Source: a virus. Taken from it: a DNA stretch of 40,607 nucleotides. The position numbers were made by a program, and so were the translations under genes. The stretch is from positions 1-40,607 of IMG/VR virus record IMGVR_UViG_3300045118_000070, one strand, 5' to 3'. Numbering within the stretch: position 1 is the stretch's first letter; every line of letters starts with the position of its first letter. Of this stretch, positions 12,221 through 40,607 are shown piece after piece. The notes beneath the pieces are model-generated. The model did not search any database, was not told the origin of the DNA, and was given only the letters and a program-made list of their open reading frames with translations.

Positions 12221-12249
12221 ATCATAACCTATTTTTTATCGTCTGTCAA
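12221..12249 (-). promoter_or_regulatory. Promoter of the tail operon
   Basis: The minus strand reads TTGACA, 17 bases, TATGAT: a strong sigma70 match. The -35 box lies inside the last codons of the upstream glycosyltransferase gene. Confidence 0.8.
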
Positions 12250-13443
12250 AATTTCAGTCTGTAATTTCTCTAAAAATGGCTTCCATTTCGTTTCATACAA
12301 TGTGTCGATATTAAAATTGTTTTTAATATGTTTTCGACAATCATTTTTAACCTTACTTTGATTTTCCTTTAGAGACTTATACACCCGCTCCATTTGTTCG
12401 TATAAAGAATTAACATCTGCTGGATAAGTATATGATCCGTCGTTCGTCCAACGCGGTGTACCTGTTTTACAAGCAAATCCAGTCTTACCGTCTACAATCA
12501 ATTCTGGCATAGAATGACACGAGTTTATGATTGCAGGAACTCCTGCTGATTGAGCCTCAATAATAGTTAATCCAAAACCCTCTGTCTGTGATGGGTGCAG
12601 TAAAACATCCATTGTATTTATTTCTTTATTGATTGTATGAGAATCAGACATCCAGACTGCCTGATATGGATTAACAAACATTACTCTGTGAGCAATTCCA
12701 AGCTGTTGTGCGTATTGTTGGATTGGAAATCCAGTTGGGGCCATTTGTTGAGTGTGGATAAGGAGCATGGCTTCGGGGTGTTTGTCATAAAACATCTTGA
12801 AAGAATCTAAAGCCTCCTGAAAACCTTTGCGGGGTGGATTTTCTTTGTTGGCTGCGATCATTCCAAAAATAAACGCATCCTGTGGAATATTAAACTCAGC
12901 ACGACATTTTTCTTTGCTTAATGGTTTAAATATCTCAGTGTCAGTTCCTTCAAGAATCAAGGTTGAAGTGAACCCCGCTTTTTGGAGAGCATCTTGTCCA
13001 AACTTGGAAAACGTAACAATACGATAGGCATATTGTAATTTTTCCAACACTCCCTGTGGAACAGGGTCTTTATCTATCGGGCAATAAGGAACCCAGTATT
13101 TTATTTGTTTCAAGTGGTTTGGATCAAGTGTCCAAACATCTTGCATTGTGAAGATAACATTGGCTCCAGCGGTTGCTCCGTGAGCTATCAAAGCATCAGA
13201 CCCCCAAGGGTTATCCATTACAGGAAAACATTTTAATGTTAGTCCCTTGAAACGATCGTCAATTAAATCTTCTCCATGTAGTGTTACCGGAAATCCCTGA
13301 ATACCCCAAAATGAGTTGCAGGTCGTATTCCATCCATCTTTTAAGAAGCGATATAATAAATCTCTAGTTTCTACACCATACCCAGAATTTGTATGTACTC
13401 CGTTACTGCTCCAAAAAAGTCTTAAATCTCTTTTTTCTTTCAT
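12229..13443 (-). CDS. GT4-family glycosyltransferase
   Basis: The 404-aa product is a GT-B fold enzyme. The C-terminal nucleotide-sugar half shows MLIHTQQ, then the retaining GT4 signature HPSQTEGFGLTIIEAQSAGVP (the EX7E motif) near residue 290, followed by PAIIN. The N-terminal half has WSSNGVHTNSGYGVETRDLL. GT4 enzymes transfer sugars from nucleotide donors with retention. It is the last gene of the six-gene modification operon, and its ATG overlaps the previous stop. The donor may be the heptose made by the operon at 29-33 kb; the acceptor is unknown, and virion proteins are my inference. Confidence 0.85.
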   Translation of the reverse strand: MKEKRDLRLFWSSNGVHTNSGYGVETRDLLYRFLKDGWNTTCNSFWGIQGFPVTLHGEDLIDDRFKGLTLKCFPVMDNPWGSDALIAHGATAGANVIFTMQDVWTLDPNHLKQIKYWVPYCPIDKDPVPQGVLEKLQYAYRIVTFSKFGQDALQKAGFTSTLILEGTDTEIFKPLSKEKCRAEFNIPQDAFIFGMIAANKENPPRKGFQEALDSFKMFYDKHPEAMLLIHTQQMAPTGFPIQQYAQQLGIAHRVMFVNPYQAVWMSDSHTINKEINTMDVLLHPSQTEGFGLTIIEAQSAGVPAIINSCHSMPELIVDGKTGFACKTGTPRWTNDGSYTYPADVNSLYEQMERVYKSLKENQSKVKNDCRKHIKNNFNIDTLYETKWKPFLEKLQTEILTDDKK

Positions 13444-14120
13444 TTTATTAGCTTGTCTATTTTATTAACCACATCTTCCGTAAATTTTATTCGGTAGTTT
13501 CCTTTTTGAACATTACCGCCACCAAAATGAATTACACACAACTGCCTATCCCCTATCATGATTTTGTCGTCTTTAACGACAGCATCTTTCCATAATGGTT
13601 TTGCCGACTCGCCATATATTTTTTCCCCATCTAAACATTTTATTTTATAGTTTCCATAATCCGAAGCGAGAATATTCATCAAATCCTGTTCGCGAAATTG
13701 ATAGCGATCAAAATGTTCAGATTGACACAACTTGAACCAATGTAAGACAAATTCTTTACTTTTAAGAACAATTAGGCCGTTATTGTAATACGGGCGAATA
13801 TCCCAGCAGTTTATAGGAAACTCCGGGTTATTAAGCACTACCCCAGCATCAAAATCCCCGTTCCAAACATCATCTATATTTCCAGTAATAATCTGGTCAG
13901 CATCGAGCTTGCAAACCTCATCATATCCTTCATTAAATAATTTCATAGCAAGAATTGGTGTAGCCCGATAGTAGAATTTAGGATCATTAAATTCTTCAAC
14001 GAATTTCTGGTCGAATAGTTTTAATTCAATATCTGAAAATTTAGCCAGAGATTTTTTCAATTTTTCATAATGCGGCAGGTTGTTATTGTCGGCAATTGTA
14101 TAGAAACAGCGTTTAGTCAT
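13440..14120 (-). CDS. GT-A glycosyltransferase (GT8-like)
   Basis: The 226-aa protein carries a DxD metal/nucleotide-sugar motif (EVCKLDADQIITGNIDDVW, residues about 68-86), an FNSGL-like YYNNGLIVLKS and a C-terminal VIHFGGG resembling the HF/G metal-binding motif of GT8 enzymes. It is shorter than many GT8 members. It overlaps both the GroEL stop and the GT4 start, so the genes are translationally coupled. It is probably one of two sequential transferases in virion or host-surface glycan synthesis. Confidence 0.75.
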   Translation of the reverse strand: MTKRCFYTIADNNNLPHYEKLKKSLAKFSDIELKLFDQKFVEEFNDPKFYYRATPILAMKLFNEGYDEVCKLDADQIITGNIDDVWNGDFDAGVVLNNPEFPINCWDIRPYYNNGLIVLKSKEFVLHWFKLCQSEHFDRYQFREQDLMNILASDYGNYKIKCLDGEKIYGESAKPLWKDAVVKDDKIMIGDRQLCVIHFGGGNVQKGNYRIKFTEDVVNKIDKLIK

Positions 14121-15705
14121 CTTTTACATCGTCAGTAATAATACAAGCCGTAGTTAGCATCATTGTTGCAGCAGAAACAGCATTCGTAAGTGCTGACCTA
14201 GTAACCTTAACTGGGTCAAGAATTCCTGCCTTAATCATGTCTTTAAATTCCCCATCCATAACGTCTATTCCCATTGGGTATTTTACAGACTGCATTTTTC
14301 CCCAAACTTCGGCATAGTCATAACCGGCGTTATCTACAAGGCGTTTAAATGGCCCTAAAAGGGCTTCTCGGAGTATTTTAGCCCCAACACTACCATCTTC
14401 TTTCCAAAAGGCTTCTTGTGACACTTGTAATAATGCAATTTCTCCACCAGCGATAACCCCATCCTCAATAGCAGCCTTTGTAGCATTAATAGCATCGATG
14501 ACCCTCTCCTTCTTTTCTTTTAGTTCCGTTTCGGTGTTAGCCCCCACCCTAATAACGGCTACCCCCCCCGAAAGCCTAGCAAGACGTTGTTTTTTTGTTT
14601 CTCTTTCAAAGTCTGTTTGTGAGGCACTAATCTGTTCTTCAAGTTCAAACATTCGATGAATAATTGCCTCTTTGTTTTTGCCCTCGTTTATAAATATGGT
14701 GCGATCACGCTCAATAATAACCTTTTCTACTCTACCCAATTCTTCAATCTCCACAGTTTTTAGATCACGCCCACTATCGTTCAAAACAACCTTTCCGTTA
14801 GTTAATCTGGCAATATCTTCTAGTTCTTCTATTCTTTGGCTACTAAACGCTGGAGCTTGAATTGCAACAACATCAACGACACCCTTTATTTTATTAACGA
14901 CTAAAGTGGCAAGAGCTTCTTCTACAACTTCGCCTGCAATAATTAAAATTTTAGTTGGTTCTCCTTTCTCGGTCGTATATTTCAAGAACTTCTCCATAAA
15001 AGGAACAATGTCAAAATTATGGTTTATTTTCTTATCAGTCAGTAGAATGTATGGATTATCCATCTCGGCAACCATCTTTTCTTGGTTGGTGATGAAATAA
15101 TTTGACAAGTAGCCTCGATTAATCTCCATTCCCTGTTTGTAATCAATCGTTGTTTCAAACGAACTCCCCTCCTCCACCGTTATAACCCCATTCTTTCCTG
15201 TCTTTTTGATTGATTCAGCAACCAATTCTCCTATTTTCTCATTAGCTGACGAGATGGTGGCAATCTGTTTTATTTCCTCGTCTGTGGTTATTTTTTTAGC
15301 TAAACGATCGAGACTTTCAACACATTTTACGAGAGCCTTATCGATGTCATTTTTGATTGTCATGGGGTTTATTCCGGCCTCGATATTCTTAAACCCTTCT
15401 TTAATAATTGATTGTCCAAGAATGGTCGCCGTTGTCGTTCCATCTCCTGCTTTGTCGTTGGTCTTTACGGCTGCCTCTTTCAAAATCTCAGCACCCATAT
15501 CAGCAAAATAATCTTTCAGGTTTATTGATTTTGCCACCGAGACTCCATCGTGCCAGACAACAGGTGGTCCATAGGGTTGATTAACCGCCACATTGCGCCC
15601 TTTGGGGCCAAGAGTTGATCCTACAGCATCCCCCAGAACATTAACACCACGCAACAGTTTACGACGAGCTTTGGTATTAAAGAGAATCTTTTTTGCTATT
15701 TTCAT
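14113..15705 (-). CDS. groEL: Phage-encoded chaperonin GroEL
   Basis: The full-length 530-aa 60-kDa chaperonin has GPKGRNV, GDGTTTAT (ATP phosphate loop with the catalytic-site Asp), and the RVIDAINATKAA segment containing the conserved hydrolysis Asp. The normally Gly-rich VAGGGVAL loop reads IAGGEIALL here, a Gly-to-Glu change in the nucleotide pocket. The C-terminus stops at ITDDVKDD and lacks the GGM tail. It is translated with GroES (ATGA overlap). Phage chaperonins fold capsid or tail proteins; placement between FkbM and glycosyltransferase genes is unusual. Confidence 0.95.
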   Translation of the reverse strand: MKIAKKILFNTKARRKLLRGVNVLGDAVGSTLGPKGRNVAVNQPYGPPVVWHDGVSVAKSINLKDYFADMGAEILKEAAVKTNDKAGDGTTTATILGQSIIKEGFKNIEAGINPMTIKNDIDKALVKCVESLDRLAKKITTDEEIKQIATISSANEKIGELVAESIKKTGKNGVITVEEGSSFETTIDYKQGMEINRGYLSNYFITNQEKMVAEMDNPYILLTDKKINHNFDIVPFMEKFLKYTTEKGEPTKILIIAGEVVEEALATLVVNKIKGVVDVVAIQAPAFSSQRIEELEDIARLTNGKVVLNDSGRDLKTVEIEELGRVEKVIIERDRTIFINEGKNKEAIIHRMFELEEQISASQTDFERETKKQRLARLSGGVAVIRVGANTETELKEKKERVIDAINATKAAIEDGVIAGGEIALLQVSQEAFWKEDGSVGAKILREALLGPFKRLVDNAGYDYAEVWGKMQSVKYPMGIDVMDGEFKDMIKAGILDPVKVTRSALTNAVSAATMMLTTACIITDDVKDD

Positions 15706-16013
15706 TCTATTATTGCTAGTAATTCATTATAATTAACTATAAGATATTCTTCTCCTTCGTGTGTAATTTCCTGGTTCGTCCATTTTTTATATGCGACAAT
15801 CATTCCAATCTTTAGATCGGCGTATCCTTTTGCAAGCGTCATCCCCCCAATCGGCATTATTTCGCCTTGAAAAAATATAACATCAGAAGTGGCAACTATC
15901 TTTCCTTTCATTGGTTTATCTTTGCTTGAGTCTGGTAGATATAATCCACCGGATGTTTTTCCATCATCCTCTATTGGCCTTATTAACACATATCCAGGAA
16001 GCGGTTGTATCAT
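15702..16013 (-). CDS. groES: Phage-encoded co-chaperonin GroES
   Basis: The 103-aa protein has the GroES layout: MIQPLPGYVLIRPIE, the mobile loop with GKTSGGLYLPDSS (GroEL-binding GGLYL), a GKIVATSD turn, a roof-loop region and the closing YLIVNYNELLAIIE strand. It caps the chaperonin ring. The gene precedes groEL and overlaps its ATG by 4 bases; its own ATG overlaps the FkbM stop, so stoichiometry is probably set by translational coupling. Confidence 0.95.
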   Translation of the reverse strand: MIQPLPGYVLIRPIEDDGKTSGGLYLPDSSKDKPMKGKIVATSDVIFFQGEIMPIGGMTLAKGYADLKIGMIVAYKKWTNQEITHEGEEYLIVNYNELLAIIE

Positions 16014-16606
16014 ATTCTTTCAGCAGTCCAATTTGCCTCTCCTTCATGATTGGTAATTTTGAAACCGTTTTCTTTTAAGAATTCATCTCCCACATGGTGT
16101 TCTCCAATGATAAATTTAATCTTATCGGCAACCTCAGGAAAATCTACCGAACCAAAAACGCGCAACTCTCCGTCCTCAATATCTATTTTAAGTACATCCA
16201 CCTGTTCAATATTGTGTTCTTTCATAAATGTGGCCAATGTTTGTGTTTTTACTTTAATATTTGCGGTTGGATGATATCCTAACGTATGTGATCCCCTACT
16301 ACCAACAACAAGGTCATCAAATCCATTTTTGTCACTAAGAGCTAGATTGCAGGGTATTATTTTGTAAAGATTGTGTTTTGTAACAAAATCGTTTATTTCC
16401 TTGAAAGATGTAGGTTCTGGCTCAATTGCGTATATTTTTTCTGCCGTATGATACATCCAATAAGAGAACTCGCCACCACAAGCTCCAACATCGATAACTG
16501 TTTTTAGAGAACCTCTTTTGGCTCGTTTGTATTCATGCTCAACGAATACTTCTCTGTAAAAACGATCTTGATCGTAAATATCATTTAGTTCTTGTTCCCA
16601 AGTCAT
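16010..16606 (-). CDS. FkbM-like SAM methyltransferase 2
   Basis: The 198-aa Rossmann methyltransferase has VIDVGACGGEFSYW (SAM-binding motif I), AIEPEPTSF (motif II acidic), NLALSDKNG and DVLKIDIEDGEL (motif typical of FkbM). FkbM enzymes O-methylate sugars, polyketides or other hydroxyls. It overlaps both the first FkbM and GroES. Substrate is not visible; with two glycosyltransferases in the same operon, a glycan hydroxyl is the natural guess. Confidence 0.85.
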   Translation of the reverse strand: MTWEQELNDIYDQDRFYREVFVEHEYKRAKRGSLKTVIDVGACGGEFSYWMYHTAEKIYAIEPEPTSFKEINDFVTKHNLYKIIPCNLALSDKNGFDDLVVGSRGSHTLGYHPTANIKVKTQTLATFMKEHNIEQVDVLKIDIEDGELRVFGSVDFPEVADKIKFIIGEHHVGDEFLKENGFKITNHEGEANWTAERI

Positions 16607-17283
16607 TTCTTTGTGGCCACAATGATAGAAGCGTCATTTGGTATGGTTTTGACATCAAATCCTGCGTTTTCTAAAGCGTCTTTAATTTGATTAGGGTGTC
16701 TTCCGTTCCATTGATGGACTTCGGTAATAATCATGTCTATTTTAGGAGCTACTTTCTGGAAACTCTCGCTGGAAAATATCTCAACCTCTGAACCCTCAAC
16801 ATCCAGTTTTAATAAATCGCAGTGCTCTATCTTGTTGTCGGTGAATAATTGTTCCATTGTTATTGCCTCTACCTTTTCGATTGGCGAACTGTGGTCATCC
16901 ACAGCACCATGTAAAGAAAACATGGTCTTATTATTATTGTGATGGAACTCAAAATCTCCATGCCTGATATAAATTGCCTTATTGATAGGGAAAATACGAT
17001 CTTCAAGTTTGTTAAACTTTATCATCGTGTCTAAAATTGCGAAATGCTCGGCAGCTGGTTCAACTGAATACACCTTTCCAAAGTGTGAGAAATAGTACGA
17101 TGTAACTCCTATATTTGCTCCAACATCAACAATCGTTAGGTCTTTTTTACCAGATAGATATGGGTCGTATATTTTATCCTTATACACCTCGGCCATTTGG
17201 TGACCTAGGTAATAATTGAAAATTGGAGGATCGAAGAAGATTGCGTGGGGGACGTGTAAACCAGATAGTTTTACTTCTTGCAT
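16603..17283 (-). CDS. FkbM-family SAM methyltransferase 1
   Basis: The first gene of the modification operon (226 aa) has IVDVGANIGVTSYYF (motif I), VYSVEPAAEHF (motif II), FPINKAI and LLKLDVEGSEVEIF, the classic FkbM set. The ATG lies only 6 bases downstream of a -10-like TAAAAT, so the mRNA may be leaderless. It is paralogous in family to the next gene, but their sequences differ, suggesting two distinct methylation sites. Confidence 0.88.
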   Translation of the reverse strand: MQEVKLSGLHVPHAIFFDPPIFNYYLGHQMAEVYKDKIYDPYLSGKKDLTIVDVGANIGVTSYYFSHFGKVYSVEPAAEHFAILDTMIKFNKLEDRIFPINKAIYIRHGDFEFHHNNNKTMFSLHGAVDDHSSPIEKVEAITMEQLFTDNKIEHCDLLKLDVEGSEVEIFSSESFQKVAPKIDMIITEVHQWNGRHPNQIKDALENAGFDVKTIPNDASIIVATKK

Positions 17284-20810: not shown

Positions 20811-21500
20811 TCAAAAACCAACTCCAAGCAAACTTCTATATGCCGATATTCCAGACGGGAAACCGTTGTAAATGTTATATATCTCTTGGCTACCAAGTAC
20901 CCTATTAAATATAGCTACATCGTCTAGTGTCCCCACAAAGTTTCTGGTGAGTAAGTACCCAGGATCAACACCCATATAAAAATTACTTCCAGCAGAGTTA
21001 ACATTTCCGTAGGCTGATTGTGTGACAAACGTCCCGTTGTGATATAGTCCGATATTGGTACCATCATAAACTCCAGCCACATGATGCCAAGAACCATCTA
21101 TAACCGTAATCGTTGGGGTACCAGATGAGGCAGCATCCACGCTTATGTATGTTTTTGTTTTATCTCCATATCCAGCACCACCCATAGCAATAGCCAACAG
21201 ATTTCCACTTGATCTGGCGGCAACCAACGAAGCATAATCCTCTGTCGAAGTTGAGTTTCCATTTACCCAGAGGGACATCGTTATCGCCGTTGTAAAGTTA
21301 GTACCTGCTAAGGTTGTGACAATGTTACTGCTAGCTCCAAACACTGCACCATTACCGAACTTTCCGGTAGTGTAACTTATCGTTGTGTCTGAACCATTGT
21401 ATGTACCCTTAGAGTCTACAGAACTACTCTCCAGACGATAATATGCCTTTAGATTGGCATCAGAAAATAGGGATGTTGTGTATAGTTCTTGTGCGGCCAT
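20811..21500 (-). CDS. LamG/concanavalin-like lectin protein 2
   Basis: The 229-aa LamG-type jelly roll has LKAYYRLESSSVDSKG, FGNGAVFGASS, an AITMSLWVNG strand, DGSWHHVAGVYDGTNIGLY and the closing GTLDDVAIFNRVL. WHHVAGVYDG is the LamG hallmark. It is paralogous to 10379-11080, including the N-terminal TTSLFSDANL/TTSLYSDPRL start. It follows the 733-aa repeat protein and probably decorates the head or collar fibres, binding carbohydrate. Confidence 0.8.
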   Translation of the reverse strand: MAAQELYTTSLFSDANLKAYYRLESSSVDSKGTYNGSDTTISYTTGKFGNGAVFGASSNIVTTLAGTNFTTAITMSLWVNGNSTSTEDYASLVAARSSGNLLAIAMGGAGYGDKTKTYISVDAASSGTPTITVIDGSWHHVAGVYDGTNIGLYHNGTFVTQSAYGNVNSAGSNFYMGVDPGYLLTRNFVGTLDDVAIFNRVLGSQEIYNIYNGFPSGISAYRSLLGVGF

Positions 21501-21509
21501 TAAGTACTG

Positions 21510-23711
21510 TTATGTACCCTTCCAATAATTGACGGTGATAAAAGCCGTTCCAGCACCAACAAAATGATAGGTAATTTCAGAGTTCGTTCCTGTAGCGAAT
21601 GCTGGCGTTATTCTCTTAGAAATACCACCACCAGCCGGAAATTGACCAGCGGCCAAAACACCAGTTCCCTGTATAGCTGTCCCTGCCAAAACACGCACGT
21701 CCGCCGTTCCCGACTGCATGACGATATCTACTCCAGAAATATAATGTATTGTTCCTGCTCCAGACGCCGCAGATATAGTAGCAAAGAACGAGCCGCCCGC
21801 TGTGCCTAGTGTTCCAAATGTCAACATTGTTGGTACAGGAACAGGATTGAGCTTAATTGTCCCACCCGCCAGATTAGTTACGGAAGTTACTGTTCCTGTC
21901 AATAAATTGACTGATCCATTTGTAAGATTACTTACTACTCCGACACCGGTCGTTGTTCCAGAGTTCTGTAGCGTGCCAGACAATATATTTATTGATCCAT
22001 TGGTGAGGTTCGATACTACTCCGACACCTGTCGTGGTTCCAGCTGATTGGAGCGTGCCGGTTAAAATATTGATCGACCCATTTGTTAAATTGGATAATGT
22101 GGTCATGGACGTGAGAACGCCAGCCGCAATGGAGCCGATGTTTGTTACAGAACCTAGGTTGGTGATGGTTCCAACACCAGTTGTTGTGCCACTATTGGCT
22201 AGTGTTCCTGTAACTATGTTATTAACTACACCCACGGTACCAAGCGTATTCTGAGTACCGGCCGCGATAGTTGTTATTGTTCCTGTATTTAGAACTAATG
22301 TTGTGGTAACGGTTCCAGACTCAATTGTTCCTATGTTGCCTATTCTTGTAACCAAATCAACTCCTTTTAATGTTCCGATGTTTGTTACAGACCCTAGATT
22401 TGTTACGGTGCCGACTCCAGTTGTAGACCCAGAATTTTGTAATGTTCCACTAAGAATATTGATTGAACCGTTAGTGAGGTTACTTACAGTTGTCACTACG
22501 CCAGCACCAACCAAAGTGCCTACATTTGTTATCGTACCTTTGACCAATTCAGCAACCGATGAGACTAAAGCTAATGTTCCTCCAACAAGATTATTGACGA
22601 CACCAACTGTTCCAAGTGTGTTTAAAGTTCCAGCAACTATCGTACTAATCGTTCCTGTTTCAATCGTACCGATATTCCCTGTGCGTGCAACTAAATCTAC
22701 ACCCTTTAGTGTTCCAATATTAGTTACACTTCCCAGATTGGTAATAGTCCCGACTCCCGTTGTTGTTCCACTATTCTGCAACGTCCCCAATCTTACTTGC
22801 ACATACGCTCCATTAGTGCCATCTCCCCTAGCCCTATCCCAACGGGTTCCAGAATTAAGCACCATAGCATAACTTTCTACAGATAATACTCCCGTAGTCG
22901 GGCCTAACTCGCCGTCATCTTGTACACCCTCAACCCTCATGAACGCATAAGTTTGAGGTGTCCCGTCTGACAAACCCAAGATTGATATTCCATGATCTGC
23001 TCCGACCGCAAAGTTATCTCCCTGTTTCATCATGTCGAGGTCTGCACCAGTGGCGTCAACCACGATTACTTTGGAAGTTCCTCCCAGTCCTAATACCGTT
23101 CCAACCGTTCCCAATGTATTTTGTGTTCCGGCGACAATTGTATTAATCGTTCCCGCTGATATGGTTGTACTCGTTAAGGTAACCGCATGGCTAGGAAGTG
23201 TGCCAATAGTATTTATACTTCCGACTGTTCCCACAAAACCAACCGTACCATCATCAGGACGGACTGTTAAATATCCGCTGGGTGGAGGAGAAACCGGGAT
23301 TGGATTTGTACCCGCATTAGATATTGAAACAGTACCTCCAACCGATTGAATTGTTCCCCCTACAACTGACGTAATTGTTGTTCCCCCAACGCCAAGTATT
23401 GTTCCTACAGTTCCTAATGTGTTTAGTGTTCCAGACTCAGGGTTAGCCGTTACGGAAATACTAGGCATTGTACCGATTGTATCTATAGACCCGATTCTGT
23501 CTATAGTTCCACCTGGAGTATTCCCCAATGTAACCGATCCCGCAGGGCCTAGGTTATACACATATTGAGCACCAGTTGACGGATCAGCACTCAGTCTAAT
23601 CACTTCAGCAGTTCCTGTTGTGTCAGACGTACCTGCTGTTCCCGATACTGCGGTGTTTGTGGGAAATCTGTTAGCGTCTTGTAATGCTTGATATGGTGGT
23701 TCAGTTCTCAT
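21510..23711 (-). CDS. Giant Gly-Thr repeat fibre protein, 733 aa
   Basis: More than half of the protein is built of short hydrophobic strands spaced by GT, NGT or GGT (TLGTVG, NIGTLKGVDL, LTNGSINILSGTL), a pattern expected of a beta-solenoid or triple-helical fibre. The N-terminal 25 residues may anchor it. A non-repetitive insertion at about 210-300 contains a folded domain (DMMKQGDNFAVGADH). The last 100 residues resemble the C-terminal domain of 11080-11613. It is a candidate receptor-binding or head fibre and an obvious Thr/Ser-rich substrate for glycosylation. Confidence 0.65.
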   Translation of the reverse strand: MRTEPPYQALQDANRFPTNTAVSGTAGTSDTTGTAEVIRLSADPSTGAQYVYNLGPAGSVTLGNTPGGTIDRIGSIDTIGTMPSISVTANPESGTLNTLGTVGTILGVGGTTITSVVGGTIQSVGGTVSISNAGTNPIPVSPPPSGYLTVRPDDGTVGFVGTVGSINTIGTLPSHAVTLTSTTISAGTINTIVAGTQNTLGTVGTVLGLGGTSKVIVVDATGADLDMMKQGDNFAVGADHGISILGLSDGTPQTYAFMRVEGVQDDGELGPTTGVLSVESYAMVLNSGTRWDRARGDGTNGAYVQVRLGTLQNSGTTTGVGTITNLGSVTNIGTLKGVDLVARTGNIGTIETGTISTIVAGTLNTLGTVGVVNNLVGGTLALVSSVAELVKGTITNVGTLVGAGVVTTVSNLTNGSINILSGTLQNSGSTTGVGTVTNLGSVTNIGTLKGVDLVTRIGNIGTIESGTVTTTLVLNTGTITTIAAGTQNTLGTVGVVNNIVTGTLANSGTTTGVGTITNLGSVTNIGSIAAGVLTSMTTLSNLTNGSINILTGTLQSAGTTTGVGVVSNLTNGSINILSGTLQNSGTTTGVGVVSNLTNGSVNLLTGTVTSVTNLAGGTIKLNPVPVPTMLTFGTLGTAGGSFFATISAASGAGTIHYISGVDIVMQSGTADVRVLAGTAIQGTGVLAAGQFPAGGGISKRITPAFATGTNSEITYHFVGAGTAFITVNYWKGT
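21852..22814 (-). repeat. Coding repeats within the fibre gene
   Basis: The encoded unit LQNSGTTTGVGTITNLGSV plus NIGTLKGVDL recurs near residues 311, 424 and 506, and LTNGSINILSGTLQ near 412, 542, 569 and 596. DNA copies differ at third codon positions, so the repeats are old or selected at protein level. Such arrays can vary in copy number by recombination. Confidence 0.7.
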
Positions 23712-28721: not shown

Positions 28722-28958
28722 CTACTCGCCAAACACCTCCACAAATAGGACATTTTTCGTGTTTACTAATATGGTTCTGCCGTCCATTGTATCGAAATGG
28801 GTAAACTCTCCCTGTTCAATCGTTTCGGTTTTGATGTTCCTAAATGTCTTCTTATATCCACCCTTCATCGTAATAATTTGAGTAACGGTTTTGCCTTTCT
28901 TTTCTACACTGGATTTGAGATTAACGGGTGAGATTAATGTAAGTTGCTTGTCTTTCAT
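28722..28958 (-). CDS. Hypothetical protein, 78 aa
   Basis: A small beta-rich protein (TVTQIITMKGGYKKTFRNIK, DTMDGRTILVNTKNVLFVEV) with no known motif; the final strand pattern resembles small host-interaction or regulatory beta proteins. It overlaps the transketolase C-part by 38 bases. It may be unrelated to sugar metabolism. Confidence 0.5.
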   Translation of the reverse strand: MKDKQLTLISPVNLKSSVEKKGKTVTQIITMKGGYKKTFRNIKTETIEQGEFTHFDTMDGRTILVNTKNVLFVEVFGE

Positions 28959-29439
28959 TTATTGTTTTATTTAATAATTCCTTAATTTCATCTTTGCTTT
29001 GAGGCCATGTTGAGAAGATACTGGGAAATAAATCCATTACTTGCTTATCTTCTGTAGACCAATGAGAAAACCCATCATGTTCGTAATCAAAATCCCGACC
29101 ACCGCCAACCAAAATAACAGGGATTCTTTCGTGGTCTATGTAGTTTCTTATTGTTTCAAATGGCCGATATAGAAGAAACGGGGTAATTGAATAGACAATC
29201 GGTATCTTACCGCTTAATGCTAACCCGACAGCCATTCCCATCATATTTTGTTCTCCAGCCCCACAGTTTATAAATCTATCTGGGAAATCCCGTTTAATCT
29301 TATCCAACATACCCCAACCAAGATCACCAGTTAAGAGATAAATATCTTTATTATTTCTCATTTCTTCGTGAAGATAAAAAGCAAAATAACCCCTCATGCT
29401 TTCATACCTTTCGGACTCAGATAATGCTTTTATATTCAT
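28921..29439 (-). CDS. Transketolase, pyrimidine-binding subunit (truncated)
   Basis: This 172-aa protein matches the second transketolase domain: IYLLTGDLGWG, FPDRFINCGAGEQNMMGMA (the Glu that activates thiamine diphosphate), PIVYSITPFLLYRPFE and DGFSHWSTED. The third, C-terminal domain of normal transketolases is missing, leaving only the pyrimidine domain. It overlaps the N-part gene by 23 bases and must pair with it to form an active site. The expected reaction is two-carbon transfer producing sedoheptulose-7-phosphate, the entry point of heptose synthesis. Confidence 0.8.
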   Translation of the reverse strand: MNIKALSESERYESMRGYFAFYLHEEMRNNKDIYLLTGDLGWGMLDKIKRDFPDRFINCGAGEQNMMGMAVGLALSGKIPIVYSITPFLLYRPFETIRNYIDHERIPVILVGGGRDFDYEHDGFSHWSTEDKQVMDLFPSIFSTWPQSKDEIKELLNKTINERQATYINLTR

Positions 29440-30016
29440 CCTCTTTCATAACTTTGTAATGTGGCGCTAATCCCTTAGCAAAAGGCAAATCTGTATCAAC
29501 CCTGACAAACATATCGATTGGATAAAATGCGTTCAATCTTTTTTCTAACCAAGAAAGATCAACGTCGTCATAAGCTGAGTAACCATTGGCAATTACATAG
29601 ACATGAAGATTTTGAAGTTTTAATTTAGTCGCCATCGTCAACGCTTCCCAAACACTTCCCTCGGCACATTCTCCATCGCTAATTGTACAAAAGATATTGC
29701 GGGTACGATCAGCCAAAGCCATTCCGACAGCGATTGGCAACCCTTGCCCCAAACTGCCAGTCGAGACATCACATCCAGATTCTCTATCACAGTGGATACC
29801 AGATTTTATGCACTCTTCTGCGTCTATTTTTTCGTATTTCTCTCTAACAACTAAATGTGCCAAATGAGCATGGCCATTACTGATAACAACTTTATCATCC
29901 TTATGTTTAACCGAATATATTTTATCGAGGATATTAACCAGCCCCAAACAACTGCCAATGTGAGAAAGTTTGTTCTTATAACTTATATCAATAATTCTTT
30001 TTTCGAGTGTATTCAT
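29417..30016 (-). CDS. Transketolase, diphosphate-binding subunit
   Basis: The 199-aa product matches the first transketolase domain: KLSHIGSCLGLVNIL, VISNGHAHLAHL, CDVSTGSLGQGLPIAVGMAL and TISDGECAEGSVWEALTMA, ending the metal motif at ANGYSAYDD. The usual GDGE reads SDGE. It is shorter than typical split subunits (about 270 aa). Sugar biosynthesis clusters often carry such split transketolases. Together with the next gene it could supply sedoheptulose-7-phosphate or a related ketose. Confidence 0.8.
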   Translation of the reverse strand: MNTLEKRIIDISYKNKLSHIGSCLGLVNILDKIYSVKHKDDKVVISNGHAHLAHLVVREKYEKIDAEECIKSGIHCDRESGCDVSTGSLGQGLPIAVGMALADRTRNIFCTISDGECAEGSVWEALTMATKLKLQNLHVYVIANGYSAYDDVDLSWLEKRLNAFYPIDMFVRVDTDLPFAKGLAPHYKVMKEDEYKSII

Positions 30017-30734
30017 TTACCATTTCGCTAATTGAGAGATATAAGGGTCTTTGTGAAAACTCGAGAGTCGGTTTTACTATCCATTTCTCTGTATCATATT
30101 TTCTCATATTTTCTACCCTTTTGATATTGGCCTCTTTACCTGTTATCGACTCAACCATATTTTTGACGTCCTCATTTGAATATGAAATACCCGAACTAAT
30201 TTGAAATGTCTGATTGCGGTATTTGTTTATGTTTTCTGTTAGATACATAACGCCCTTAACAAAATCTTCAACGTCAATATAATCATGTGTTGGTTCTCCC
30301 ACAAATGGCATTTCAACTCCATCAAGACATGATTTAATCAGTTTAGGAATTAAGTGTTGTTCTTGTTCTCCAACTCCGGTGACACTTGATGGCCTAACTA
30401 TAATCCAAGGCATTTCCAAAAACGTTAATGTTTCCTCCATTATTTTTTTGGCTGTTGAATATGGGGTTTGTGTTGGTAGCAACACAGAGGATGTGGAAAT
30501 ATAAGTGAAAGATTTGTTGGAGTAAGGTAATAACCTTAATGGCTCAGATACATTTGCCTTATATGTTTCTGACAAGTCAGTCTGACTGTAATAATTGCCA
30601 TAACTGGCACAATAAACAATATGATCTGCTTTCGGTACTTCCTGCCAATCCCTAGGCAGATAAAGAGCCTGAGAAAGAGATTTCAGCTTGTTGGATATAA
30701 AGCCTCCCCCTCTCAAAAGGTACGTTTGCTTCAT
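29988..30734 (-). CDS. NAD-dependent epimerase/dehydratase (extended SDR)
   Basis: I choose the ATG at 30734 (MKQTYLLRGGGFISNKL); longer starts add unconserved residues. GGGFIS replaces the usual GxxGFIG nucleotide loop. Catalytic Ser lies in YISTSSVLL and the YxxxK pair in YSTAKK. IVRPSSVTG and HDYIDVEDFVKGV are typical of sugar-nucleotide epimerases. In the operon it would act last, on the nucleotide-activated sugar, for example as a heptose epimerase, dehydratase or reductase. Its gene overlaps the zinc-ribbon gene by 83 bases. Confidence 0.75.
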   Translation of the reverse strand: MKQTYLLRGGGFISNKLKSLSQALYLPRDWQEVPKADHIVYCASYGNYYSQTDLSETYKANVSEPLRLLPYSNKSFTYISTSSVLLPTQTPYSTAKKIMEETLTFLEMPWIIVRPSSVTGVGEQEQHLIPKLIKSCLDGVEMPFVGEPTHDYIDVEDFVKGVMYLTENINKYRNQTFQISSGISYSNEDVKNMVESITGKEANIKRVENMRKYDTEKWIVKPTLEFSQRPLYLSISEMVNEYTRKKNY

Positions 30735-30927
30735 TTTTAACATAGGCGGTTCCGCCACAACCACCACAAATAATAGCGATATTTGGACTTTTAATTACTG
30801 TAAATCCTTGATGAAAGCGTTGCACTAAAAAATCACCTGCCGTTCCCAGTTCTCCTAAAATAGACCGGATTCCCTTAGATTCGCAGGTGGGACAAATAAT
30901 TAAATTCTTTTTCTTAGTGTTTAACAT
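30652..30927 (-). CDS. Zinc-ribbon protein, about 91 aa
   Basis: Two Cys pairs, LIICPTCESKG and AIICGGCGGTAY, lie about 40 residues apart and would bind one zinc. The ATG at 30927 is preferred over a GTG six bases upstream; the gene overlaps both the guanylyltransferase end and the SDR start. The last 25 residues are encoded on top of the SDR's N-terminus. The role is unknown: a regulator or an accessory subunit of the sugar pathway. Confidence 0.55.
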   Translation of the reverse strand: MLNTKKKNLIICPTCESKGIRSILGELGTAGDFLVQRFHQGFTVIKSPNIAIICGGCGGTAYVKNEANVPFERGRLYIQQAEISFSGSLSA

Positions 30928-31369
30928 ATTCACGAGCCTCTTCTAATCCTTTTTGTGTGCCGACATCAATAAATTCATTGTCTAACAACCTTTCCGCACT
31001 TCCATCTTTTCTATAAACTGTAATTCCACAATGTTTAACTCCTGTTTCTTTCTTGGTAATCAGAGTGTCCCCATTAACCACCATTATTTCTTCACTCGGG
31101 AACCAACCTCTTAATAAATTAACTGTATGATATTCTCCCATAGGTATCGGTTCATAAAGATACAAAAACCGCTGACCAAAATACTCCATTACTTTACTTG
31201 GCCAAGAGTGCAGGTTTATCACTATACGCTGTATACCTTGTTTCTCTAAATAATTAGCAATATATTCAAGTATGGGTTTTCCCCCAACATCCACCATACA
31301 CTTAGGCATTTCCACCAGTTCGTTAGCAAGGCGCGTTCCTCTACCAGCACAAAGGATTAATCCTAACAT
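30914..31369 (-). CDS. hddC: Sugar nucleotidyltransferase, HddC-like
   Basis: The ATG at 31369 (MLGLILCAGRGTRL, 151 aa) overlaps the kinase stop by 7 bases. The signature GxGTRL and later PKCMVDVGGKPILEY are the NTP-binding motifs of NTP_transferase proteins, and VNGDTLITKKE is the metal Asp region. D-glycero-alpha-D-manno-heptose 1-phosphate guanylyltransferases have this plan but are about 230 aa; this one is compact and lacks part of the sugar domain. By context it would make the GDP-heptose donor. Another nucleotide or sugar is possible. Confidence 0.7.
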   Translation of the reverse strand: MLGLILCAGRGTRLANELVEMPKCMVDVGGKPILEYIANYLEKQGIQRIVINLHSWPSKVMEYFGQRFLYLYEPIPMGEYHTVNLLRGWFPSEEIMVVNGDTLITKKETGVKHCGITVYRKDGSAERLLDNEFIDVGTQKGLEEAREYVKH

Positions 31370-32277
31370 TGCCTTACATCTAAACCTTGCCAATCGATAG
31401 AATAATCAACCCATTTGATGCCTATTTTATTTTTGAACTGTTTTTGTTTTGAGATAGGAACAACAAAGATACAATATCCACCACCGCCAGCACCAAGGAG
31501 TTTACCACCATAGGCACCAAGCCTTTTTGCTTTAATAAACAATTTATCTATCTTCTCGTTACTGACTCCGGAATTTGACTTTTTCTTCAATTGCCATGTT
31601 TTGTCTATCAATTGTCCAAGACGTTTTATTTTACCATTATACATAGCATCACATCCCTGTGGCACTAATTCTTTCATTTTGTCCAGGATTTTTATTTGTT
31701 GTAGACTTGGCTCTTTAAACCCGTCTTGAATATTCTTTGATTTTCTGTTTTCTCCAGTGTGAAACAAAAGAATAGAATCTGCTACCCGTTCAACTAATTC
31801 CCGATAAAGTGGAATAACTTTAACTTCGCCATTAAAATACATTATGTTCACACCGCCATAAGCGGCCGCATATTGATCCTGTTTTCCCCCAAACATACCT
31901 AATTCGTTTACCTCTATATTCCACGCACTTTCGGCAATATTGGTTCGGTTTAACTTACGGCCAGCAAGACTCCACAATGCCCCCACAATGGCAACGGCGG
32001 TACTTGCCGAGCTACCAATACCTCCAGTTATTTCTCCATCAAACTTTTGAATAAATGACGCTGGAGTATAGCCAATGTTTTTCCAAAATGCCTCGTAAAA
32101 TGATTGTTTACCACCAGTGGGATATTTATGCGTTTGATACTCATCTGTTTTTATTGTTATCTCTTGACGTAAGTTTATCGCCATACTTAATATTGCTCCA
32201 CCATTTTTATATGTTGGAATATCCGTTCCCCCACCAAATAGTGAGATTCGACAAGGGGCCGATGCTCTAATTTTCAT
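31363..32277 (-). CDS. hddA: GHMP sugar kinase, HddA-like
   Basis: The 304-aa GHMP kinase has APCRISLFGGGTDIPTY (substrate motif 1), GGIGSSASTAVAI (ATP motif 2) and GAYGGKLLGAGGGG (motif 3). The RISFxGGGTD N-terminus and total length fit D-glycero-D-manno-heptose 7-phosphate kinases. The reaction would give heptose 1,7-bisphosphate. Overlaps with the HAD gene (ATGA) and the nucleotidyltransferase show a coupled pathway operon. Fucokinase-like activity is the alternative, less supported by neighbours. Confidence 0.85.
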   Translation of the reverse strand: MKIRASAPCRISLFGGGTDIPTYKNGGAILSMAINLRQEITIKTDEYQTHKYPTGGKQSFYEAFWKNIGYTPASFIQKFDGEITGGIGSSASTAVAIVGALWSLAGRKLNRTNIAESAWNIEVNELGMFGGKQDQYAAAYGGVNIMYFNGEVKVIPLYRELVERVADSILLFHTGENRKSKNIQDGFKEPSLQQIKILDKMKELVPQGCDAMYNGKIKRLGQLIDKTWQLKKKSNSGVSNEKIDKLFIKAKRLGAYGGKLLGAGGGGYCIFVVPISKQKQFKNKIGIKWVDYSIDWQGLDVRQC

Positions 32278-32579
32278 ATATATAATTTTCTAAAGTCGTT
32301 CCATGATGTAAACCTAATTGCCCTATCATCAAGATAAACAGTTGTGTTCGGTTGCTTAACGTTTGTAATTAATACTTCTTTTGAGTATCCGTTTTCCCTT
32401 AGCCATTTTTTCATCATTGGCCAGTCTTCTTTTGGGCGATTGGTTAGGATATAAAAATCATCTAACAATCTTAGTGTTTCAATTGCCCCCTTTTTGGGTT
32501 TGTCAGACCAGGGGTTAGAATTAGTAGGTATTCCCGTTCGGTGTACTATGGTGCCGTCCCAATCACAGGCTATCTTCAT
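32274..32579 (-). CDS. Small HAD phosphatase (GmhB role proposed)
   Basis: About 101 aa from the ATG at 32579: MKIACDWDGTIV carries the catalytic DxDGT, YILTNRPKEDW the Thr motif, and TVYLDDRAIRF the final acidic motif. It is a cap-less minimal HAD, much shorter than typical GmhB (about 190 aa) and without its zinc-binding Cys cluster. Lying between isomerase and kinase it could remove the 7-phosphate from heptose 1,7-bisphosphate; this is inferred from context. Confidence 0.65.
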   Translation of the reverse strand: MKIACDWDGTIVHRTGIPTNSNPWSDKPKKGAIETLRLLDDFYILTNRPKEDWPMMKKWLRENGYSKEVLITNVKQPNTTVYLDDRAIRFTSWNDFRKLYI

Positions 32580-33030
32580 AAAAGTTATCAACAATTGTGC
32601 ATATCTCGTGAATAATTCTCAAATGTTTTTCCTGAACGTATGCCGTAGTTTGTTTTCCGTTTTTAATTGGAAACATCCTCACTTTAATATTCATAATACT
32701 GGCGGTTTTTTCTGCCTCGATACAGTTTTTTGACTTACCAGATGTAGAAAGTATAAAAAGAATATCACCAGCTGATCCAAGAGCCTCAAGTTGCCTAGAA
32801 AATACATATTTGAAATCATCATCATTCCCAATCGCAGTAATAATGCTCGTGTCAGTCGTTAGCGAAATTGCTGGAAGGGCTTTTCTTTTGACAACAAAGT
32901 GTCCAACTAATTCTCCAGCAAAATGTTGCGCCTCAGCCGCTGATCCTCCATTGCCGATTATAAGAATTTTATTTCCTCTTTCAAAACATTCGATAATATC
33001 ACCCGCAAAGTTGCGAGATATGGACAGCAT
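32563..33030 (-). CDS. gmhA: Phosphoheptose isomerase, GmhA-like (SIS domain)
   Basis: The ATG at 33030 (155 aa) lies 7 bases after a -10-like box, so I prefer it to the upstream TTG. The SIS fold shows ILIIGNGGSAAEAQHFAGEL (phosphate-binding NGGSA), AISLTTDTSIITAIGND and ILFILSTSGKSKN; the GHFxxxR and GNDDDF positions agree with GmhA. It converts sedoheptulose-7-phosphate into D-glycero-D-manno-heptose-7-phosphate. It is somewhat shorter than bacterial GmhA (about 190 aa), chiefly at the N-terminus. It is the first gene of the sugar operon. Confidence 0.85.
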   Translation of the reverse strand: MLSISRNFAGDIIECFERGNKILIIGNGGSAAEAQHFAGELVGHFVVKRKALPAISLTTDTSIITAIGNDDDFKYVFSRQLEALGSAGDILFILSTSGKSKNCIEAEKTASIMNIKVRMFPIKNGKQTTAYVQEKHLRIIHEICTIVDNFYEDSL

Positions 33031-33035
33031 TATTG

Positions 33036-33049
33036 ATATTTTAACACAA
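33036..33049 (-). promoter_or_regulatory. Promoter-like element before the heptose operon
   Basis: The minus strand reads TTGTGTTAAAATAT, identical to 17288-17301 before the FkbM-GroEL operon. The extended -10 is followed by the ATG after 7 bases. It overlaps the divergent rightward promoter region at 33054-33082 closely. Confidence 0.5.
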
Positions 33050-33053
33050 TAAT

Positions 33054-33082
33054 TTGACAAGTGTTTTTGATTGTGGTAAATT
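33054..33082 (+). promoter_or_regulatory. Rightward promoter 1
   Basis: TTGACA, 17 bases, TAAATT. The spacer ends TTGTGG, as in the two promoters at 33783 and 35750, giving an extended -10 TGGTAAATT. It is divergent from the heptose operon and separated from its promoter by only a few bases. Confidence 0.65.
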
Positions 33083-38254: not shown

Positions 38255-39459
38255 TGAAATACTTTGACGCATTTGCTGGAGTTGGAGGATTTAGTATCGG
38301 AATAGAAAAAGCTTATGAAACAAATAATAATTTCGGGGGGGTTACAAGCACACCAGACACCAAGAACAGATGGAATAAGTCCGTGTCTGAACTCAGCAAT
38401 GGGGTTGGGCGGAGGACAGACGCCACTTGTGTTGGTTATTCCGAAATTGACAAGTATGCCATCCAAGTTTATCAATACCACTACCCAGAAAGGACAAATT
38501 ATGGAGACATTACCAAGATTAACTGGCAAGATGTACCCGACTTTGATTTGCTTGTCGGAGGAAGCCCTTGCCAAGACCTCAGTGTGGCTGGAAAACAAAA
38601 AGGACTCTCTGGTGAACGGAGTGGATTATTCTTTGAGTTCGTCAGGTGTCTTAAGGAAAAGCAACCTCGTAATTTTATTTGGGAGAATGTTAAAGGAGCT
38701 TTATCAAGCTCAAGAGGATGGGACTTTGGTAGAGTGCAAATTGAGTTCTCCGAAGCTGGGTATGATGTTGAGTGGCAAGTTCTCAACGCCAAAGACTTCG
38801 GAGTCCCCCAAAATCGTGAAAGGGTGTTCGTTGTCGGACATCTTAGAGGAAGAAGTAGACCAAAAGTATTTCCTATCACCACAAATAACGGAAAGGCTCC
38901 TCAAGAACTCTCGACTAAATCTGGACAAACTGACAGATTCTATTCAACAGACGGATTAAGCCCGACAGTTCCGACAAGCGGAGGTGGCGGACACGAACCG
39001 AAGATTGGGGTAGCCGTAGACAGAGGACAGATTAAACCAAGAACCACCAGCAATGCCATAGATGCGAATTATTGGAAAGGAATAGACAATCATCAAGCGA
39101 GAACGGGGGTAGCTATGAGATGGTCAAGGAATGAATTAGGTAAAGAAGCTAGGAGAAAAGCAAAGTCAGAACTCGGTAAAGACTACACCCCATTCAATAA
39201 AGGACACAGAAATTTGATACCGGCTAGGGAAAATATCAGTGGGGCTGTTACAGGCGCTTTGAATAAAGACGCCTTATTGGGCATTGGAGAAGAATTGAAA
39301 ATCCGCAGACTAACTCCCTTAGAGGCAGAGCGCCTTATGGGCTGGCCTGATAGGTGGACAAAAGAACCAAATATCTCAGACACCCAAAGATACAAGATGT
39401 GTGGTAATGGAGTGGTAAGTAATGTGGTAGAGGAGATTATTAAAAGGATGATTTTATAA
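38254..39459 (+). CDS. DNA (cytosine-5) methyltransferase
   Basis: The 401-aa protein contains motif I FDAFAGVGGFSIGIE, motif IV GGSPCQDLS with the catalytic Cys, motif VI IWENVKGAL, motif VIII QNRERVFVVGH, then the target-recognition region (residues about 215-335), motif IX LTPLEAERLMGWPDRW and motif X YKMCGNGVVSNVVEEI. All core motifs are present. It probably protects phage DNA. No cognate nuclease is nearby. A second copy of its last codons opens the window. Confidence 0.93.
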   Translation: MKYFDAFAGVGGFSIGIEKAYETNNNFGGVTSTPDTKNRWNKSVSELSNGVGRRTDATCVGYSEIDKYAIQVYQYHYPERTNYGDITKINWQDVPDFDLLVGGSPCQDLSVAGKQKGLSGERSGLFFEFVRCLKEKQPRNFIWENVKGALSSSRGWDFGRVQIEFSEAGYDVEWQVLNAKDFGVPQNRERVFVVGHLRGRSRPKVFPITTNNGKAPQELSTKSGQTDRFYSTDGLSPTVPTSGGGGHEPKIGVAVDRGQIKPRTTSNAIDANYWKGIDNHQARTGVAMRWSRNELGKEARRKAKSELGKDYTPFNKGHRNLIPARENISGAVTGALNKDALLGIGEELKIRRLTPLEAERLMGWPDRWTKEPNISDTQRYKMCGNGVVSNVVEEIIKRMIL

Positions 39460-39462
39460 TAA

Positions 39463-39627
39463 ATGGAAAAAGAACAGATAGACATTATCATTGAGCAGAG
39501 AGAGAAAGTACCACCAGAGAAATCAATTAGAGATATGACTGACGCTGAACTGGATGAATACTGGGTTAGGATAGAGGTGTTGGCCATGCAGATAGAGGCT
39601 GAGATGGCAAGACGTGGGTTAGATTAA
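39463..39627 (+). CDS. Small acidic hypothetical protein, 54 aa (right copy)
   Basis: Same protein as at 20-184 with conservative or silent changes. It begins 3 bases after the methyltransferase stop. Function unknown. Confidence 0.7.
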   Translation: MEKEQIDIIIEQREKVPPEKSIRDMTDAELDEYWVRIEVLAMQIEAEMARRGLD

Positions 39628-39653
39628 GGAGGCGAGGACAGGGTCCCCTTAAT
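39623..39653 (+). promoter_or_regulatory. Hairpin before the phosphoesterase (right copy)
   Basis: ATTAAGG (39623-39629) pairs with CCTTAAT (39647-39653), with two further pairs inside across a bulge. The loop keeps GGACAGGG from the left copy, while the stem sequence is different. The ATG follows about 18 bases downstream. Confidence 0.5.
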
Positions 39654-39671
39654 TTAACAATTAAATAAAAT

Positions 39672-40367
39672 ATGTTACGCACATCAGTTGCGTCTGACTT
39701 CCATTTTGGAAGTGTTAATCATGAGGCAGTTGAGAAGTGGTTGGAGCACATAGGGTCAACAAAACCAGACAGGATAATTATTGCGGGAGATTTGTTAGAC
39801 GCTTTAGATTTAAGTCATTATAATCACGTTCCTGAATTTGGAGAGAGATGGGAAAACGAATTGGCCTATGCGAATTTATTTTTGGACACACTTAGAAAAG
39901 TATATGGTGGAAAAATAGATATTTTGGAGGGAAACCACTGTCACAGATTAAAGCAACTTGTCTGGGGAAATGCACCAGCCTTATCTGGTATGTCTGGTTT
40001 TTCTATTCCTGAAAGGTTAAGACTGAAAGAAAGAAATATTGAATGGCACGATGTCCAAGATGGAGCTGCGAAGTTTGTGGATAACTATATCGAAGATCAG
40101 GGTTTCTTGGTAGGACACTTCAACCTTGCTCGTAAGGGTGCAGGAAATACGGTTAGAGGGTTACTAGATACTTATGGAACAAACATAGTTCAATCACACT
40201 GTCACCGATTAGCCATCATTTATAAGCGTGTCTATGACCGCACCTTAATCGGCGTAGAATGTGGATGTATGTGTTCGCTCACCCCTCCTTGGATGAAGCA
40301 AACAGACTGGCAGAACGGGTGGGTTGACATTATAGACGGAATACCAGAGTTACACTTTATTAAATGA
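39672..40367 (+). CDS. Calcineurin-like metallophosphoesterase, variant B
   Basis: A 231-aa homologue of the 226-924 product with the same metal-ligand order: ASDFHFG, IIAGDLLD, LEGNHCHR, VGHFNLAR and QSHCHR. The catalytic histidine after GNH is followed by Cys-His here, versus Glu-Phe in variant A. N- and C-terminal segments (KPDRIII, WVDIIDGIPEL) are well conserved, while the middle differs strongly. It lies upstream of the RusA-like gene, as in variant A. Confidence 0.85.
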   Translation: MLRTSVASDFHFGSVNHEAVEKWLEHIGSTKPDRIIIAGDLLDALDLSHYNHVPEFGERWENELAYANLFLDTLRKVYGGKIDILEGNHCHRLKQLVWGNAPALSGMSGFSIPERLRLKERNIEWHDVQDGAAKFVDNYIEDQGFLVGHFNLARKGAGNTVRGLLDTYGTNIVQSHCHRLAIIYKRVYDRTLIGVECGCMCSLTPPWMKQTDWQNGWVDIIDGIPELHFIK

Positions 40368-40607
40368 AATTTACATTTCCTAAACCACCAGCTCTCAATC
40401 ATCTATACGGGATTAATAAATGGGGTGGTAAGTATCTCAAAAGAGATGGTCGGGTGTGGCAGGAAAAGGCTATTTGGTCGATGAGAACGGAGCTAAAAGA
40501 AAACTGGGAGAAACCTTTATCTTTAACAGTTAATCTTTACACTTGTCGCCACCAAGACAATGACTCGATACTTAAACTACTCCAAGACACGCTTCAACTA
40601 GGACAAG
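40364..40607 (+). CDS. rusA: RusA-like resolvase, 5' part (truncated by window end)
   Basis: Starts with ATG, overlapping the phosphoesterase stop by ATGA; the left copy has GTG at the same place. Covers about the first 81 residues, including the DNDSILKLLQDTL active-site region. Differs from 921-1164 at about four bases. Confidence 0.85.
   Translation, partial: MKFTFPKPPALNHLYGINKWGGKYLKRDGRVWQEKAIWSMRTELKENWEKPLSLTVNLYTCRHQDNDSILKLLQDTLQLGQ

Follow-up and report, generated by a model that had tools for sequence, protein, structure and literature searches.

Predicted heptose-activation genes of a small phage are joined to an exchangeable dehydrogenase and compact split transketolase module

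We analysed 40,607 nucleotides of viral DNA (IMG/VR record IMGVR_UViG_3300045118_000070, positions 1 to 40,607; the whole stretch is referred to as the window) and describe here an operon on its minus strand. From 33060 to 28921 the listing of ORFs (open reading frames) in the window gives eight that are contiguous, the end of each overlapping the start of the next (Table 1). A sequence-only reading had described these genes as a complete heptose route with its own supply of sedoheptulose-7-phosphate (S7P) from a transketolase (TK), and the genes are present in the order and place that it claimed. Pfam and NCBIfam searches matched the products to SIS_2/GmhA, GHMP kinase/HddA, NTP_transf/HddC, Epimerase, Transketolase_N/DXP_synthase_N and Transket_pyr. 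Together with PHROGs, these searches bear out the proposed enzyme identities, that of the HAD protein by PHROG and motifs only. All NCBIfam scores fall below the curated equivalog cut-offs, and the enzyme names used here are therefore 'type' names. The enzymes are compact, as had been noted. The individual parts are ordinary and their assembly is unusual.

Table 1. Operon genes and other features of the window discussed in the text.
Feature	Position	Strand	Evidence
GmhA-like S7P isomerase, compact SIS	32563..33060	-	SIS_2 1.1e-19; TIGR00441; 1tk9; motifs
Minimal HAD phosphatase, candidate GmhB-like 7-phosphatase	32274..32579	-	HAD motifs; phrog_1238 2.5e-12
HddA/WcbL-type GHMP heptose kinase	31363..32277	-	NCBIfam HddA 5.8e-41; 3k85, 4n3o, 4usk; GHMP motifs
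HddC-type nucleotidyltransferase	30914..31369	-	NCBIfam HddC 5.9e-15; motifs; fold model
Zinc-ribbon protein	30652..30927	-	Four Cys in CxxC pairs
Compact short-chain dehydrogenase/reductase (SDR), NDP-sugar epimerase/dehydratase/reductase fold; opens SDR-TK module	29988..30743 (start approximate)	-	Epimerase 1.5e-12
Compact split transketolase, thiamine pyrophosphate (TPP)-binding subunit (TK-N)	29417..30016	-	Transketolase_N 3e-9; 6yak
Compact split transketolase, PYR subunit (TK-PYR)	28921..29439	-	Transket_pyr 5.8e-19; 6yaj
Glycosyltransferase family 4 (GT4) enzyme, candidate user of the sugar	12229..13443	-	Glycos_transf_1 7e-18
GT8-like protein, common to SDR-TK-only phages	13440..14120	-	tblastn; GT8 likeness by eye only
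FkbM-family methyltransferase, block of GT4 and GT8-like genes	16603..17283	-	TIGR01444 1.5e-23
Major capsid protein, marker of phage lineage	18659..19912	-	phrog_14242 3.7e-22

The eight-gene set is more than a chance arrangement, as its order recurs in other phages and all eight genes are under purifying selection. The order is identical in record L002, where the operon adjoins and precedes the terminase gene, and the same or nearly so in L185 and L189. It is also found in L083, with HNH-like genes inserted, and L007 and L033 carry all of the operon genes except the HAD gene. Relative to L083, the nearest relative, nonsynonymous divergence (dN) is far below synonymous divergence (dS) in every gene, with dS near saturation. 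Searches of plasmid and phage collections by tblastn returned distant matches only, mostly unannotated, and a paper on Brachyspira contains no cluster comparable to the operon. In L083 (2989-8681), four HNH-like genes, recognized by eye, lie between the cassette genes, as if homing endonucleases were invading the operon; similar genes occur in L191 and L196.

The first four genes are predicted to encode a route to a nucleoside diphosphate (NDP)-activated heptose, a prediction well supported by families, motifs and nearest structures. The GmhA-like protein, whose start is either TTG 33060 (giving an N-terminus conserved in L083) or ATG 33030, matches TIGR00441 (gmhA) at 9.7e-41 and 139 bits, below the 209-bit cut-off. 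Its closest PDB match is a phosphoheptose isomerase; the GNGGS, STS and Q...H zinc-site motifs are retained, and the S7P-isomerase zinc site (His, Glu, Gln, His) aligns with 1tk9 and 5i01. The kinase scores 141 bits against a 600-bit cut-off, its nearest solved relatives are heptose kinases, and its GHMP motifs are invariant. The nucleotidyltransferase (55 bits against a cut-off of 300) is about 70 aa shorter, having lost the central, sugar-binding part, and retains the GxGTR signature, the PK lysine and the NGD and DxG(T) aspartates. Its model (pLDDT, a per-residue model confidence score, of 75) matches the fold of GlmU, MurU, RmlA and HddC. Active-site loss in the shortened kinase or nucleotidyltransferase, which had been feared, was not seen, as the catalytic residues are kept. 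The HAD motifs DxDxT, T, K and DD are invariant across three phages; the sole family match of this protein carries the label 'phosphoheptose isomerase', Pfam and NCBIfam searches gave no match to a GmhB profile, and the gene is missing from the locus in several relatives. The cysteines of the zinc-ribbon protein are conserved across four phages, and among IMG/VR kinase loci its gene goes with the heptose module and not with the TK.

The remaining three genes form an SDR-TK module. The SDR has an invariant catalytic Tyr/Lys pair (YxxxK), and its model (pLDDT 88) matches NDP-sugar SDRs. Of the 'both halves of a transketolase' described earlier, the N (TPP) and PYR domains are there and the C-terminal domain is absent: TK-PYR ends at 172 aa and no C-domain ORF follows among the window ORFs. 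The best PDB profile matches of the two subunits are the chains of a split TK (6YAJ/6YAK) with a C-terminal domain of about 140 aa. TK-N retains the substrate His residues and the SDG...N motif, and in TK-PYR the catalytic Glu and the acceptor-site Asp are aligned. The residue at the acceptor site is Asp in the group of the window and Patescibacteria, and TKs from RfbH and KdsC contexts have Leu or Cys there, a difference that is suggestive. We considered this residue as proof of function and rejected it, since it follows the tree and thus counts as few events. No PF02776 (DC-superfamily carboligase) gene was detected in the window. A small ORF at 28722-28958 overlaps the end of the PYR subunit gene; it is kept in L083 and has no family match.

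Comparison with related phages revealed that the TK is exchanged for another thiamine diphosphate (ThDP) enzyme. We defined a lineage of 12 related phage records by a common capsid protein, the window protein having 55-85% identity to that of 11 records. Throughout this lineage the heptose module stays the same and the ThDP enzyme varies, with SDR-TK in seven records and a PF02776 carboligase in four. The two occur together in no record of the lineage (Fisher p=0.003, with the kinship of records ignored), and the capsid tree implies at least two switches between them, three by parsimony. Four further heptose-module records, all short fragments, have neither gene. The exchanged-in carboligases are YerE/acetolactate-synthase (ALS)-like and are accompanied by RfbH-like genes (pyridoxal phosphate Lys to His), that is, RfbH-type 3-dehydrases. 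Two of them lie with a 4-hydroxy-2-oxovalerate aldolase and an acylating aldehyde dehydrogenase, and one (G415) sits with RfbF/RfbG/RfbH-like genes, RfbF and RfbG being named by eye. The accompanying genes, RfbH-type and others, are familiar from clusters for branched sugars. Across the 36 loci of an IMG/VR scan for the HddA-type kinase, the heptose module is accompanied by SDR-TK, by RfbH and an SDR, by a YerE/ALS-like carboligase, or by nothing at the site; the 20-odd more distant phage kinase loci lack a TK, and most of them include a GmhA-like gene. S7P is not a product to be expected of an ALS-type enzyme, so the role common to TK and carboligase is more likely the formation of a carbon–carbon bond on an activated sugar. 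The TK is thus probably an exchangeable tailoring enzyme rather than a precursor supply.

The SDR-TK module also occurs independently of GmhA. Scanning IMG/VR for TK-N yielded 80 loci, and an SDR gene adjoins tkN-tkC in most of the 80-81 viral loci, mostly without heptose genes, as well as in several Patescibacteria. In many marine viral loci the compact TK has RmlB-like and RfbH-like genes in its vicinity, and some phages with this TK have neither GmhA nor the kinase anywhere in the record. GmhA was found in none of five Patescibacterial genomes with a compact TK, and a second, stronger TK match was found in all nine such genomes. In a FastTree phylogeny of TK-N plus PYR, compact TKs from viruses and Patescibacteria cluster together (100% support) and are separate from the 64 other cellular TKs included. 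Tentatively, and with the odds somewhat against it, these enzymes may constitute a family that branches nucleotide sugars by C2 units, and small phages may use either them or YerE-type carboligases to turn activated heptose into branched higher sugars. Some marine loci encode an RpiB-fused nucleotidyltransferase and a KdsC-like HAD protein; in L066 (6826-7992) and relatives, the nucleotidyltransferase fused to an RpiB-like isomerase lies beside a compact TK and a KdsC-like phosphatase, possibly another sugar pathway of a new kind. In bacterial clusters L118, L126 and L143, a TK without a C-terminal domain is found beside GmhA-like and radical SAM/SPASM genes, with a GmhB-like gene also in L118.

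We propose, with a probability of roughly 60%, that the operon combines heptose activation with an exchangeable sugar-branching module, the product of which is used by the phage GT4. Under this proposal, GmhA, the HAD protein, the kinase and the nucleotidyltransferase, with the zinc-ribbon protein alongside them, would convert host S7P into a nucleotide-activated heptose. The SDR and both TK subunits would act as a tailoring unit. The SDR would make, or later reduce, a keto group on an activated sugar, and the TK would take a two-carbon ketol group from a ketose and add it to this sugar, giving a branched or chain-extended sugar. The acceptor would be either the NDP-heptose or an NDP-hexose from the host, with GDP as a putative nucleotide. 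The GT4 encoded in the structural gene block would then attach the product to its target, most likely a protein of the virion. Several observations weigh against this proposal. The glycine-rich cofactor motif of the SDR is degenerate in the window (GGGFIS in place of GxGxxG) and in L083, and the window operon has no 4,6-dehydratase or RfbH-like gene as a source of the keto acceptor. The acceptor Asp, whose canonical counterpart we take to be E. coli TktA D469, and the terminal Arg are retained as in ordinary transketolases. In some unrelated bacteria a separate clade of C-domain-less TKs lies near GmhA and GmhB. Finally, in G415 the carboligase and its RfbF/RfbG/RfbH-like genes are not located with the heptose genes, and the branched sugar of that phage could thus be something other than a heptose.

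This last observation argues for two separate sugars, with the GmhA-to-HddC module making NDP-heptose for GT4 and SDR-TK branching a host NDP-hexose for the GT8-like enzyme. Such an arrangement is a sub-case of our proposal as regards TK chemistry and a rival as regards the product. Lineage B, which has SDR-TK, GT8-like and FkbM genes but neither heptose genes nor GT4, also points to it. However, SDR-TK is joined directly to the heptose genes in seven phages, and the carboligase genes are interleaved with heptose genes in G407 and G412, which argues for one sugar. We regard two products as a serious possibility, albeit one with less than even odds.

The role originally suggested for the TK, production of S7P from pentose and hexose phosphates to feed GmhA, HddA, HAD and HddC on the way to GDP-heptose that the SDR then modifies, now appears unlikely. 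S7P is the substrate of GmhA and the operon genes are contiguous, and the canonical catalytic and acceptor residues, together with the C-domain-less TKs near GmhA/GmhB, keep the idea alive at low probability. Against it stand the exchange of the TK for ALS/YerE-type enzymes, heptose modules and more distant kinase loci that lack it, and SDR-TK without GmhA in phages and Patescibacteria. Hosts also normally carry a TK of their own. Of the earlier pathway, the steps from GmhA to NDP-heptose are supported and the private S7P supply is not. It is more doubtful still that the SIS protein, kinase and nucleotidyltransferase act on a phosphosugar other than heptose: the sub-cut-off family scores and the lost sugar-binding part of the nucleotidyltransferase would fit, but the best solved relatives are specifically phosphoheptose isomerases and heptose kinases. 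Decaying cargo without function, an idea compatible with the short genes and the degenerate SDR motif, is very improbable given purifying selection on all eight genes, gene order conserved in diverged phages and retained catalytic residues.

The proposed system shares features with several known ones. The GDP-D-glycero-D-manno-heptose pathway (GmhA-HddA-GmhB-HddC; WcbL in Burkholderia) likewise unites these four classes of enzyme in a single operon, and HddA and HddC are the curated models that fit the phage genes best. The phage enzymes are much shorter, score below equivalog cut-offs, include a minimal HAD and are linked to SDR-TK; we compare them as an NDP-heptose route. In the yersiniose and erwiniose pathways (RfbF-RfbG-RfbH, a YerE/ErwE carboligase and an SDR reductase) the resemblance is to related phages, in which the place of SDR-TK is taken by genes for an ALS/YerE-like carboligase, an SDR and an RfbH-like protein. 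The window itself has a TK-superfamily enzyme joined to heptose genes and no RfbF/G/H, and may work like a YerE-type pathway without being a member of it. YerE was described in yersiniose synthesis, YerE-like enzymes branch keto sugars, and ErwE prefers 4-hydroxy-2-oxo acids (PMC12247030). Split TKs have been proposed to transfer hydroxyacetyl units to keto sugars in miharamycin and amipurimycin synthesis (PMC12247030). These likewise pair a split TK with an oxidoreductase for what would be a C2 transfer onto a keto sugar; they are from Streptomyces, their function is also only proposed, and the phage enzyme, unlike them, has no C-terminal domain. The split-chain TK of Carboxydothermus (6YAJ/6YAK) also has two subunits, but its chains are longer, with a C-terminal domain, and the name transketolase is that of its depositors. 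HddA-like kinases occur as well in Caulobacter phage Cr30 and Synechococcus phages, which are large phages with kinases of 25-29% identity; the more distant IMG/VR kinase loci are without TK. A limited literature search found no paper on phage genes for sugar branching by ThDP enzymes.

The capsid gene is followed immediately downstream by genes for GT4, the GT8-like protein, the FkbM methyltransferase and GroEL/GroES-like proteins. Of 14 heptose-module records, 10 have GT4, and these are all the records in which the region is present, the rest being fragments of 8-20 kb; the four SDR-TK-only records are without it. The GT8-like protein, which has no NCBIfam match, is 22-29% identical by tblastn in lineage B and 38-74% in lineage A. 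The position of glycosyltransferase and methyltransferase genes next to the capsid gene suggests glycosylation of the virion, possibly by the phage GT4. The GroEL (phrog_5725, 530 aa) and GroES-like (103 aa) genes, at 14113-16013 between glycosyltransferases and methyltransferases, also occur in several relatives. The structural block encodes a repetitive, Thr/Gly-rich protein of 733 aa (21510-23711; 18% Thr), a possible glycan acceptor. Two proteins with similar-looking starts (SLYSD/SLFSD...YYAR/YYRL; 10379-11080 and 20811-21500) are possibly lectin-like decoration proteins.

The nearest cellular TKs come from Patescibacteria. We considered a Patescibacterial host and did not adopt it, as a search of 380 genomes found no counterpart of the capsid protein and just two weak matches to the terminase. 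A paper on phages of groundwater Patescibacteria reported O-antigen sugar genes, and neither heptose nor transketolase. The genome had been given as 39 kb; the record comprises 40,607 bases with near-repeat ends (1-1164 and 39444-40607; 97% over 174 bases and 93% over 291 bases), flanking two metallophosphoesterase genes that are not alike. The arrangement looks like that of a circularly permuted genome opened at a point of difference between two strain variants.

If our proposal is correct, a phage of about 40 kb would build an exotic activated sugar, and its lineage would swap the carbon–carbon bond-forming step between two unrelated types of ThDP enzyme, in a manner comparable to O-antigen variation in bacteria. 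The operon would provide a minimal enzyme set open to assay and suggest what compact split TKs may do in phages and Patescibacteria; it would also offer an entry point to glycosylated phage particles. The findings suggest that these phages vary exotic sugars that they probably place on their own particles.

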